64,000 nt of DNA from Chitinophaga filiformis (GTDB taxonomy: Bacteria > Bacteroidota > Bacteroidia > Chitinophagales > Chitinophagaceae). Below, piece after piece: positions 9,947 through 20,189 of the stretch (within the stretch, counting starts at the first letter, position 1; the number at the start of each line of letters is the position of its first letter). Both the position numbers and the translations under genes were made by a program. The stretch covers positions 301,198-365,197 of the forward strand of contig NZ_FNBN01000001.1 in the NCBI RefSeq assembly GCF_900102545.1, given 5' to 3'. The notes under the pieces were generated by a model. It had not been told where the DNA came from and searched no databases. It saw only the letters and a list, made by a program, of their open reading frames with translations.

Positions 9947-10204
9947 TGTTCAAGATTTTGGTCATAAAACCTCATAGGTAAGTCATTTCATAACTACACT
10001 ATTGTTCTACGTAAATACTAACTAAGAAATAAACTGCTCCGGTATAGAACAGTGTGCTGATTCATTGTAAACTGTTTATTAATAAAAGTATAAGGGAATA
10101 TCACTATTTAATACTTATAATCATATGTTCACTGAAACGAAATATGCCTCGAACTTCGTACCACATAAAAATAAACTTATTTTGGAATAGTAGTACCCCA
10201 CGCT
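9947..10204. other. Promoter region of the haloperoxidase-like operon
   Basis: A 258-bp AT-rich non-coding stretch upstream of the leftward operon. On the minus strand, 10199-10186 reads GGGGTACTACTATT, which matches the downstream box shared by the two divergent promoters at 17990-18093 (GGGGTAyTrCTrTT) at all 14 positions. The CCCAACCCTT element of those promoters is not present here. Confidence 0.4.
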
Positions 10205-17511: not shown

Positions 17512-17958
17512 TTATTGTTTCACCAGTGTATATGTCATCCTATCCCCCTGCGTAATCCCATTCTCTACATAACAGATCAAAGTCTTACAATCATAACTGG
17601 TAATAATGCCATGCTGCAGTACACCATTTATGTTAATGGTATGCCCCTCCACATCCCAGGTACCCTTTTCTACTTCATGTGACGAACAAACAGTACCGGC
17701 GTCTCTGTTTTCATAATTACCATCGTTTCCCAGCACCAGGATATTGTCCTTTTCGCAATCTTCCATATACTGCAGGTAGTTCACAGGCTGCGCTGATGCG
17801 CTCTGCTTATATTCTAAAGCGGTAAGCTTATAAGATCCGGTAAGGTTAGCCTTACTGATTTCGCAACCGGACGGTTTATCCTCATCTTTTTTACAGGAGA
17901 AAAACATGCTGGCAGATACCATTACCATTAAAGTCCATTTCATAGATGTTGTTTTCAT
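17512..17958 (-). CDS. Lipocalin-like lipoprotein
   Basis: A 148-residue lipoprotein with signal MKTTSMKWTLMVMVSASMFFSC and lipid-modified Cys22. The mature part has the small-lipocalin layout common in Bacteroidota: LTGSYKLTALEY near the start, a KGTWDVEGHTININ strand pair, and a closing MTYTLVK strand. Several Cys residues may form disulphides. The gene is transcribed from the minus-strand copy of a divergent promoter pair shared with the lipoprotein gene at 18145. Confidence 0.8.
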   Translation of the reverse strand: MKTTSMKWTLMVMVSASMFFSCKKDEDKPSGCEISKANLTGSYKLTALEYKQSASAQPVNYLQYMEDCEKDNILVLGNDGNYENRDAGTVCSSHEVEKGTWDVEGHTININGVLQHGIITSYDCKTLICYVENGITQGDRMTYTLVKQ

Positions 17959-17989: not shown

Positions 17990-18026
17990 TAACAGTAGTA
18001 CCCCCTGCTGAGGACAAAGGGTTGGG
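17990..18026 (-). promoter_or_regulatory. ECF-like promoter, leftward copy
   Basis: Read on the minus strand: CCCAACCCTT (18026-18017), 12 bases, then GGGGTACTACTGTTA (18004-17990). AAC to GGTA spacing is 18 bases, right for an extracytoplasmic-function sigma factor. The lipocalin-like gene starts 32 bp downstream. Confidence 0.6.
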
Positions 18027-18057
18027 GAAATAGTAAAAAATATTTTTTTGGGGGATA

Positions 18058-18093
18058 CCCAACCCTTCTAAAAAAAATGGGGTATTGCTATTA
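18058..18093 (+). promoter_or_regulatory. ECF-like promoter, rightward copy
   Basis: CCCAACCCTT (18058-18067), 11 bases, then GGGGTATTGCTATTA (18079-18093). AAC to GGTA spacing is 17 bases. The first element is identical to the leftward copy and the second matches it at 12 of 15 positions. The two copies form a near-symmetric dyad centred on an AAAAAATATTTTTT tract near 18042. Confidence 0.6.
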
Positions 18094-18144: not shown

Positions 18145-18987
18145 ATGAATAAAGAGAACGGTATCAAGATGAAGTATGCAGCGTTAATGCTCGGTCTAGT
18201 TTGTGTGACAGCCTGCGGTACGGCCATGAAGCTGGCGGTACCTGAAAAATTCAAGGAACAGGCTACCATGCAACATGTACATGGCTCCAGGGGGAATAAA
18301 ATGTCATTTGCCAATATCACCACCTCGAAAATAAAAAGGGGGATACATATTAAGTATCCGGGTTGGGGTCGCAGCTTTTTCCTGGAAAACCTGTTATGGA
18401 ACCGGGCAGGGATCTCAAAATCTGAGGTAGTTGAAAAGGAAAAAGCGGGATTCCGGTATGCGCTGACAGATGGAAAGACAACAGTACAGGTGTATGCTGC
18501 TGAAAAGCAGATCATCAAAACACATGATTTTGAAATGCCGAACTCTCCCGCTATCTTTAAAAGTTTCGAGATTTTACAGCATTATGAATATATATTCTCA
18601 GCCCTCATCAGTGCAGATACAACGCAGAGCGTTAGCTGGGAACTGATGATGACCAATCTGTATGACCGGGCGTCTGAAGGCGACAACAATCCTTTCACTT
18701 TTATCAAACAGGCAGATAACGGACTGGCAACCAATGGCACAGACACGATCATTATAAAGCCCTTAAGCATCAAGAAAACAGAACTGGCTAATGGTAAAAC
18801 AGGTCAATTGCCGTTTAAACTGCTATCAGGGTATGAGCTGAGCATCGATGGTGGTGTGATCGCGATCATTGACCTGATTGACCAGAACGTATGGTTTTAC
18901 AATGAACTGACTGCTGAGGAAAAATTAAATGTTAGCGCCATTACAACAGCGCTCTTAGCCAGGAAAGTGCATGATACGAAATGGTGA
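18145..18987 (+). CDS. Lipoprotein of unknown function
   Basis: About 280 residues from the ATG at 18145; an ATG at 18169 (MKYAALMLGLVCVTAC) is an equally good start. Both give a lipobox VTAC, so the product is a lipoprotein. The mature protein shows beta-rich stretches (HIKYPGWGRSFFLENLLWNR, LPFKLLSGYELSIDGGVIAI) without a recognised domain. It is driven by the rightward ECF-like promoter at 18058-18093 and precedes the sigma factor gene by 72 bp, so it may be a member of that sigma factor's regulon. Confidence 0.65.
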   Translation: MNKENGIKMKYAALMLGLVCVTACGTAMKLAVPEKFKEQATMQHVHGSRGNKMSFANITTSKIKRGIHIKYPGWGRSFFLENLLWNRAGISKSEVVEKEKAGFRYALTDGKTTVQVYAAEKQIIKTHDFEMPNSPAIFKSFEILQHYEYIFSALISADTTQSVSWELMMTNLYDRASEGDNNPFTFIKQADNGLATNGTDTIIIKPLSIKKTELANGKTGQLPFKLLSGYELSIDGGVIAIIDLIDQNVWFYNELTAEEKLNVSAITTALLARKVHDTKW

Positions 18988-19059: not shown

Positions 19060-19593
19060 CTGGAGCAGGATCTAAGTAATATTATCATTGATTGTCGCAA
19101 TGGCAATAGGAAAGCGCAGGAGCAACTATACCGGCAGCTTTATGGCTTTGCAATGGCTATTGCGATGCGTTATGCTGTTGATGAACATGAGGCTGCGGAT
19201 ATCCTGACCCATGCCTTCGTGAAAATGTTTCGGAGTATCCAGTCGTTCGATGTAACCAAAGGGAACTTCCACGGCTGGCTGAAAAAGATCATCATCAATG
19301 AGTCATTGGATCTTATCAAACAACGCAGTCGCTTCAGTAGCGTGGAACTGGAAACAATGGAGGAACCATCTGTCAATAACAGTGTCATCGAAAAAACAGA
19401 TGCTGCCGCAATACTGGCACTGGTGAGACGGCTGCCACCTGCTACGCATGCCGTCTTTGTCTTGTATGCCATTGACGGCTACACCCACAGAGAAATTGCG
19501 GAACAATTGAACATCAGTGAGGGTACCAGCAAATGGCATTTAAGTGAGGCAAGAAAAATTCTCCAACAAAAATTAACAGCAATAAAAACTTAG
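19060..19593 (+). CDS. ECF-type RNA polymerase sigma factor with non-ATG start
   Basis: About 177 residues. Sigma region 2 runs from IIDCRNGNRKAQEQLYRQLY through DEHEAADILTHAFVKMFRSI and GNFHGWLKKIIINESLD; region 4 is LPPATHAVFVLYAIDGYTHR to EIAEQLNISEGTSKWHLSEA. The first in-frame ATG (19153) falls inside region 2 and would delete its first helix. The frame is open upstream only to a TAA at 19054 and offers no ATG, GTG or TTG. CTG at 19060, with GGAG at 19046-19049, is the best start. The stop overlaps the GTG of the next gene, so the pair is coupled. Confidence 0.8.
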   Translation: MEQDLSNIIIDCRNGNRKAQEQLYRQLYGFAMAIAMRYAVDEHEAADILTHAFVKMFRSIQSFDVTKGNFHGWLKKIIINESLDLIKQRSRFSSVELETMEEPSVNNSVIEKTDAAAILALVRRLPPATHAVFVLYAIDGYTHREIAEQLNISEGTSKWHLSEARKILQQKLTAIKT

Positions 19594-20189
19594 TGAATAC
19601 TCCCACACCATACGAAAAATTAATAGCAGAAAAGCTGGACCAGGTGCCTGTTCCCGATATGGCGGACAGTATCTGGGCTAGTATTGAAATGCAGTTGGAT
19701 GTGGATGCAAACACCCCAGATAATACTTCTACGCCTAAAAAAGCTACAAAATTCAAGGGTAAGGGCTGGTATGGTGCAGCTGGTGCGGCAACTATTGCCG
19801 TTGCACTGTGGTGGTTTACCAACCATAAAGATCCGATACCTGAAAAAGGAACACCGGCACCACCTCCGCCGACAATTGAAGTACCGATAACAATTCCTGA
19901 CAGCACATCAGAGAAGCCTGTTGAAAGGAAACCAATTGTTCCTGTCCCCCGGGAAAAGAACACGGCGCCCGTTATTGATATACCCCCTGTTGTTCCGGAA
20001 TTTGATTCCACTACCTGGCAAGTCCTGCCACCGGCTAAACCGGATTCACAGGTTGAGAGATACCGTCGCGCGTTTCCCCCTGCCGTTGATTCCGTCAATA
20101 CCCGCCCGATTAAAAAAAGCAGGGGTGTAAAAGGTATTACAGAAGACGATTACCGGCTATCTGTCGACTCGACCCATAAACCGAAATAA
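19593..20189 (+). CDS. Probable anti-sigma-type membrane protein
   Basis: A 198-residue protein starting with GTG at 19593, overlapping the sigma factor's stop by one base. The N-terminus (YEKLIAEKLDQVPVPDMADSIWASIEMQLD) is a short helical cytoplasmic segment of the kind found on Bacteroidota anti-sigma partners. One transmembrane helix follows (about 62-78, AGAATIAVALWWF), then a long Pro-rich periplasmic tail of about 115 residues. No zinc-binding anti-sigma motif is visible. Role as the partner of the sigma factor is inferred from coupling and topology. Confidence 0.65.
   Translation: MNTPTPYEKLIAEKLDQVPVPDMADSIWASIEMQLDVDANTPDNTSTPKKATKFKGKGWYGAAGAATIAVALWWFTNHKDPIPEKGTPAPPPPTIEVPITIPDSTSEKPVERKPIVPVPREKNTAPVIDIPPVVPEFDSTTWQVLPPAKPDSQVERYRRAFPPAVDSVNTRPIKKSRGVKGITEDDYRLSVDSTHKPK

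Follow-up and report, generated by a model that had tools for sequence, protein, structure and literature searches.

A conserved divergent motif, probably a promoter pair, accompanies an ECF sigma factor gene and two lipoprotein genes in Chitinophaga

Gene content of the locus

The window analyzed here is a stretch of 64,000 nucleotides from the genome of the soil bacterium Chitinophaga filiformis. Two lipoprotein genes, designated A and B, are transcribed away from each other in this window, and B is followed by genes for an ECF sigma factor and a putative anti-sigma factor. The region between A and B carries two outward-facing copies of a bipartite motif, each of which is referred to as an arm. 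Bit scores refer to R1, a profile model of the arms. The features are as follows, with the promoter elements given as predicted.

17512-17958, minus strand: gene A, encoding a 148-aa lipoprotein, lipocalin-like (PF13648, Pfam E 6.4e-6, above cut-off), read leftward from the left promoter
17999-18002, minus strand: predicted -10 element GGTA of the left promoter, within GGGGTACTACTGTTA at 17990-18004
18020-18027, minus strand: predicted -35 element CCCCAACC of the left promoter, AAC-N18-GGTA, R1 29.1 bits
18035-18049, no strand: A/T tract AAAAAATATTTTTTT between the two -35 elements, common to both promoters
18057-18064, plus strand: predicted -35 element ACCCAACC of the right promoter, AAC-N17-GGTA, found in all 30 aligned genus loci, R1 29.6 bits
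18081-18084, plus strand: predicted -10 element GGTA of the right promoter, within GGGGTATTGCTATTA at 18079-18093
18169-18987, plus strand: gene B, encoding a 272-aa lipoprotein, first gene of the probable sigma operon
19060-19593, plus strand: ECF sigma factor of 177 aa with Sigma70 regions 2 and 4 (TIGR02937), probable start codon CTG at 19060-19062
19593-20189, plus strand: putative anti-sigma factor of 198 aa with one membrane stretch (by eye), its GTG start overlapping the sigma stop

The sigma factor contains the Pfam domains Sigma70_r2 at residues 23-91 and r4_2 at residues 117-167, separated by 25 residues. It matches TIGR02937 with an E value of 1.4e-26, and its PDB relatives include SigE, SigW and CnrH. 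A PDB sequence search with the gene A product retrieved no useful match. The gene B product has no Pfam or NCBIfam match above cut-off. The AF2 model of B is of middling confidence (pLDDT 72.2) and has no PDB match with E <= 0.001, hence we assign no function to B. The product of 19593-20189 matches no Pfam or NCBIfam family at E <= 0.1. Its position and topology suggest a putative anti-sigma role, and both the overlapping frames and the membrane stretch are consistent with such a role. In Bacteroidetes, a class I anti-sigma domain is located near only 6% of ECFs (PMC7406223). In the loci L055, L058 and L061, the alignment of the putative anti-sigma is limited to the first 37-49 residues.

Both motif copies stand before lipoprotein genes, as described in the initial annotation of this DNA. 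The annotation also placed a sigma/anti-sigma pair about 1 kb away. The pair is indeed there, and its position can be refined to directly behind B, on the same strand and 72 nt past the B stop. Given this short distance on a shared strand, B and the pair probably form one operon under the right-hand copy.

Two copies of a bipartite motif

The motif ACCCAACC-N16/17-GGTAYTR is present as two outward-facing copies flanking the A/T tract. The -35 and -10 boxes span 18027-17999 on the minus strand and 18057-18087 on the plus strand, between gene A and the row of B, sigma and anti-sigma. Pattern searches of the window recovered both copies where they had initially been reported, with the same spacing from AAC to GGTA of 17 bases on the right and 18 bases on the left. 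Without mismatches, GGGGTAYTRCTRTTA occurs in the window only at 17990-18004 (minus strand) and 18079-18093 (plus strand). Likewise, CCCAACCCTT is restricted to 18017-18026 (minus strand) and 18058-18067 (plus strand).

The combined pattern CCCAACCCTT-N8..15-GGGG occurs at just these two places in the window and in none of 100 shuffles. Three matches are listed for this pattern because the left copy is counted twice through GGGGG. Extending the pattern to CCCAACCCTT-N8..15-GGGGTA yields exactly two matches in the whole 8.6 Mb genome, both at this locus, and none in the reversed control. The -35 decamer alone, with up to one mismatch, is found 3 times in the window against 3.6 expected, which is the chance level. 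The -10 stretch alone, with up to three mismatches, is found 14 times against 8.7 expected, slightly above chance, and 3 of 100 shuffles contain as many. Hence, the pairing of the -35 and -10 boxes carries the signal and each box alone is weak. Another stretch resembling the -10 box, at 10185-10199, lacks a -35 box and reaches 7.5 bits, and was judged a chance match.

A chance similarity or a non-regulatory repeat could be suspected as only two copies were found in the genome. The absence of the bipartite pattern from the shuffles speaks against this. In addition, the motif keeps the same position, orientation and spacing in every one of the 31 linked genus loci and the 31 loci outside Chitinophaga. 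We consider the probability of such an origin negligible.

Conservation of the locus within Chitinophaga

Gene B is present in 36 of 79 genus genomes. The same 36 genomes encode orthologues of the sigma factor (at least 57% identity, with the next paralogues at 46% or less). They also contain strong A homologues (E <= 1.1e-30), and one more, a fragment, is found in the genome G069. A was counted only at this threshold, and the default cut-off adds weak A-like matches (E 1e-7 to 1e-3) for a total of 42 of 79 genomes. All 36 sigma-bearing genomes carry the motif beside A or B, and the set of A, B, sigma and motif is found in none of the 43 others. The order A, dyad, B, sigma and anti-sigma is shared by 29 of the first 30 loci (L033-L062), and L051 is without sigma and anti-sigma.

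Both arms are present in all 31 genus loci where A adjoins B, that is 30 aligned loci and L134. The consensus over 65 arms is ACCCAACC-N16/17-GGTAYTR, with CCAAC identical in every arm. The -10 box reads GGTA in 64 arms and AGTA in one, though the invariance of GTA is built in because arms were chosen by a rule of at most two mismatches in total with GTA mandatory. Across the 30 loci, the right spacer is 16 bases long in 29 loci and 17 in one, and the left spacer is 17 bases long in 26 loci and 16 in four. The gap between the -35 boxes, at 18028-18056 in the window, measures 30 bp in 19 loci, 29 bp in five, 28 bp in three, 27 bp in one and 20 bp in two. The 20-bp gap, about one helical turn shorter, is found in L059 and L062.

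In all 30 loci, the gap contains 9-22 consecutive A/T bases, with 12 or more in 29 of them. A run of 9-15 bases is also found upstream of each of 11 single arms in the genus, and a shorter run (4-10 bases) in 20 loci of the wider family. The tract AAAAAATATTTTTTT is a probable UP element that would serve both promoters.

The genes A and B-sigma are not always neighbors. In five genus genomes (G001, G034, G036, G041 and G068), A is located apart from B-sigma. In all five, the detached A has a copy of the motif directly upstream and in the same direction, and a second copy is found upstream of B-sigma. Thus, each arm is complete by itself, and A retains its motif at every location. The detached A of G036 is split over two reading frames.

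The initial annotation considered a repressor palindrome as an alternative. A repressor or activator would then bind the dyad as an operator, with the boxes being half-sites rather than sigma boxes. The inverted symmetry fits such an operator, and so does the gap between the -35 boxes, which is unusually constant (27-30 bp in all but two of the 30 loci, which have 20 bp). Two unrelated promoters need no such constancy, hence the gap also counts against a reading as independent promoters. However, half-sites of an operator palindrome should always be found together, and single arms stand alone upstream of A or B-sigma in the five genomes above and upstream of sigma in 25 family loci. Two boxes at a fixed spacing with a variable spacer sequence also resemble a promoter more than an operator, and the motif tracks the recognition helix of the sigma factor. 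The copies at detached A genes are the best evidence that the motif is a promoter recognized in trans and not an operator dependent on the dyad. The alternative of a repressor palindrome is thus abandoned here, and binding of the dyad as an operator seems very unlikely.

Two genomes have departed from the common arrangement. In G075 (L132, L131), A, B and both arms are kept and the linked sigma and anti-sigma have been lost. Another contig of G075 encodes a sigma homologue (57% identity) with its own B relative and motif, and this homologue may serve both loci. G075 fits an autoregulated sigma factor only if the homologue located elsewhere does serve the A-B locus. In G069 (L133, 2286-2697), C-terminal fragments of A and of the anti-sigma gene directly adjoin each other. 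The promoter, B and sigma therefore seem to have been lost together, as if by one deletion.

Relatives outside the genus

Loci outside the genus were not used to build R1. A scan of named genomes detected five B relatives outside Chitinophaga. Four of these (L174, L178, L180 and L183) have both the sigma factor and the motif, and L181 has neither. Among 394 family genomes searched, the sigma factor was found at E <= 1e-52 in 33, of which 29 are outside the genus. With duplicates counted once (L192 coincides with L180, and L204 with L183), the sigma-bearing loci outside the genus total 31. The motif is located upstream in all 31, with sigma factors being 50-84% identical.

The loci outside the genus have two arrangements. 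Six loci (L174, L178, L180, L191, L193 and L194) have both arms and a divergent A, with sigma identities of 68-84%. The other 25 loci have a single site 0.9-2.8 kb upstream of sigma and directed at sigma, with sigma identities of 50-63%. These consist of L183, twenty loci L218-L237 and four loci L249-L252. The sites in L218-L237 score 8.0-24.4 bits and are the best match in each locus, with E <= 0.007 in 16 of them. The sites in L225, L231, L233 and L235 are weak taken alone (8.0-10.1 bits, E 0.076-0.36), yet each is the best of its locus and properly placed. The sites in L249-L252 score 11.8-25.3 bits. Flanks of 1.5 kb contain no upstream site in three of these four loci, and all four sites lie within the range of 0.9-2.8 kb.

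For seven of the 20 family loci, frames were listed and the site precedes the first gene of a row that ends with sigma and anti-sigma. The first gene of the row in L236 and L237 is a distant relative of A (26% and 31%), and L222 is without a B relative. In many single-arm family loci (L218-L226, L230 and L231), the long A/T run seen in the genus is replaced by GTTAA, located some 13 bases before the -35 box.

Association of the motif with the sigma recognition helix

All 63 sigma orthologues encoded at loci with the motif have the sequence SKWHLSEAR in the recognition helix of region 4. The corresponding residues are SKSNLFKAK in the 11 closest paralogues (42-46% identity), with eight aligned completely and three aligned one residue short. 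No full-length R1 match was found in about 4 kb upstream at each of the 11 paralogue loci, where the best partial match scored 9.7 bits. In other ECF sigma factors, the region 4 recognition helix contacts the -35 box. The difference between WHLSE and SNLFK predicts specificity.

The boxes might instead belong to a different ECF sigma factor, with the linked sigma being merely a neighbor. A first-look search retrieved 57-153 sigma candidates per genus genome, so many related sigma genes are likely, and cross-recognition among ECF sigma factors is known in general. Yet the linked sigma tracks A, B and the motif exactly, being present in 36 of 36 genomes with them and in 0 of 43 without. All 31 loci beyond the genus also retain it along with the motif, which the loci of the 11 closest paralogues found do not have. 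It is highly improbable that these boxes belong to another sigma factor.

Size of the regulon

In the genome of origin, R1 scores the two window sites at 29.6 and 29.1 bits and the next site at 14.4 bits. This search scored 150 of 3521 candidates and could have overlooked weaker sites. Across the 79 genus genomes, a relaxed pattern (CCCAACC-N16,17-GGTAYTR) matches 101 sites. Of these sites, 63 are within 1 kb of A or B and span all 36 sigma-bearing genomes. The remaining 38 sites are no commoner with sigma than without it, with 16 in the 36 sigma-bearing genomes and 22 in the 43 sigma-less genomes. The reversed control produced 32 sites in sum, which is near the number of stray sites. Most stray sites in sigma-bearing genomes (14 of 16) are inside long open frames. 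The two others are near the start of an MFS-like transporter gene (L143) and before a transposase-like gene (L153).

The regulon thus appears private, with two transcription units and no excess of other copies in the sequences compared. The initial annotation suggested a genome-wide search and would have taken a lack of further copies as evidence against the promoters. As far as tested, the genome of origin holds no strong further copy, but the relatives point to a private regulon and the promoter reading stands.

The initial annotation suggested an envelope-stress regulon, and a wide one, with these two units among many members, was considered as an alternative. A locus from a Chitinophagaceae MAG could be taken in its favor. 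At 6125-6771 of L183, an extra motif copy of 30.5 bits precedes a gene for an outer-membrane beta-barrel-like protein downstream of the anti-sigma. This gene is a possible extra member of the regulon, and the regulon would therefore not consist of two units everywhere. The drop from 29 bits to 14.4 bits in the genome of origin (among the 150 of 3521 candidates scored) argues against a wide regulon. So does the background level of stray sites in the genus, with only 2 of 16 outside long open frames in sigma-bearing genomes. We therefore rejected the wide regulon and consider it highly improbable.

A proposed autoregulated promoter pair

The two copies are very probably independent promoters of the ECF sigma factor encoded at 19060-19593, placed back to back at a shared A/T tract. 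The sigma factor would be autoregulated with a regulon of two units. The initial proposal of a divergent ECF-type promoter pair tied to the adjacent sigma/anti-sigma genes is supported, as the motif accompanies sigma in every sigma-bearing genome of the genus (36 of 36) and at every locus examined elsewhere (31 of 31). The membrane-bound anti-sigma (19593-20189) would release the sigma factor upon a signal, which is probably a change in the cell envelope given that the targets are lipoproteins. RNA polymerase with the sigma factor would then recognize ACCCAACC as the -35 box and GGTAYTR as the -10 box, 16-17 bases apart. Rightward transcription would produce B, sigma and anti-sigma, generating positive feedback together with its own brake. 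Leftward transcription would produce the lipoprotein encoded by A.

Sequence comparison shows the motif and its spacing, that it accompanies the sigma gene, that single arms stand independently, that other copies are not in excess and that the motif is linked to the recognition helix. We infer sigma binding, the transcription starts, the operon, braking of sigma by the anti-sigma, the role of the A/T tract and the nature of the signal. A role in envelope stress is plausible considering the lipoprotein targets and the usual roles of such sigma factors.

E. coli RpoE and Bacillus SigW are examples of autoregulated ECF/anti-sigma systems. A comparable spacing and an upstream A/T stretch are usual in autoregulated ECF promoters. 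Hallmarks of ECF systems include AAC in the -35 box, a co-transcribed anti-sigma and autoregulation (PMC8103513). A CGT -10 box was an early hallmark, and later classifications define ECFs by domain content (PMC8103513). The locus has an AAC -35 promoter before the sigma operon, conserved among orthologues. The -10 box is not CGT but GGTA in 64 of 65 arms and AGTA in one. With ECFs defined by domain content, GGTA lowers the match to the classical box and not the ECF membership (PMC8103513).

The locus resembles known autoregulated ECF/anti-sigma operons in that its sigma has two domains (regions 2 and 4), its -35 box contains AAC and its -10 box contains GT (PMC8103513). It also shares the adjacency of sigma to a probable membrane anti-sigma and a promoter before the sigma factor's own operon (PMC8103513). 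In contrast to these operons, the Chitinophaga locus has ACCCAACC as the -35 box, GGTAYTR as the -10 box, two back-to-back copies and a regulon of apparently two units (PMC8103513). Further differences from these operons are an anti-sigma without a Pfam or NCBIfam family and the probable CTG start of sigma (PMC8103513).

Two Bacteroidota systems are also comparable. RNA mapping in Flavobacterium psychrophilum defined the motif SM6 with a CGT box, which drives type IX secretion genes among others (PMC9723704). Both motifs have GT in the -10 box, a sigma/anti-sigma pair among the genes and a sequence distinct from the TAnnTTTG box of the primary sigma (PMC9723704). Compared on the -10 box and the targets, the Chitinophaga motif differs from SM6 by having GGTA and lipoprotein genes instead of CGT and type IX secretion genes (PMC9723704). 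An ECF sigma factor with a large anti-sigma in Phocaeicola answers toxin exposure, which the authors link to envelope stress (PMC9308784). The systems share a Bacteroidota sigma/anti-sigma pair and a small dependent gene set, with 15 genes changed in the Phocaeicola anti-sigma mutant (PMC9308784). The Phocaeicola anti-sigma has a predicted C-terminal outer-membrane barrel, whereas the Chitinophaga anti-sigma has 198 aa (PMC9308784).

The locus is a known kind of system, and its promoter sequence and layout are apparently new. No report of the motif was found in the open-licence PMC papers searched, consistent with the initial claim of a new motif. The comparison alone defines a candidate sigma-promoter pair for Chitinophagaceae closely enough for direct testing. 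The found targets of this sigma factor stay at two transcription units across the genus, and the sigma factor retains its target gene whether the gene is adjacent or elsewhere.

A conserved CTG at the probable start of the sigma gene

Translation of the sigma factor seems to begin at the conserved CTG at 19060-19062. In the window, the first ATG, GTG or TTG of the sigma frame is an internal ATG, 31 codons into the gene. Column 1 of the alignment is CTG in 29 of 30 close genus orthologues (L033-L062 without L051, plus L134) and TTG in one. Eleven other conserved leucine columns have mixed codons, with at most 23 of 30 alike. A stop codon is found just past the one codon upstream of the CTG in 14 of 29 loci. 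Among the two-arm loci outside the genus, five of six have CTG, and L174 has ACG with a GTG three codons earlier. All 21 single-site family loci looked at have an ATG, GTG or TTG at most nine codons upstream of column 1, and L218 also has a CTG. Of the six more distant orthologues in the genus, four were inspected and each has a TTG nearby.

Tentatively, the locus might combine two layers of braking. With a strong self-activating promoter driving the locus in both directions, a weak CTG start could limit the amount of sigma relative to B, creating an all-or-none switch private to two lipoproteins. Across the tight gap of 27-30 (or 20) bp, a single A/T element could serve both polymerases on the same helix face. 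Such a combination is possible but rather doubtful. The conserved CTG provides a clean natural case for asking whether rare start codons set the dosage of sigma factors in bacteria. Calling open reading frames with only ATG, GTG or TTG as start codons places the sigma start at the internal ATG at 19153, at the loss of 31 residues.
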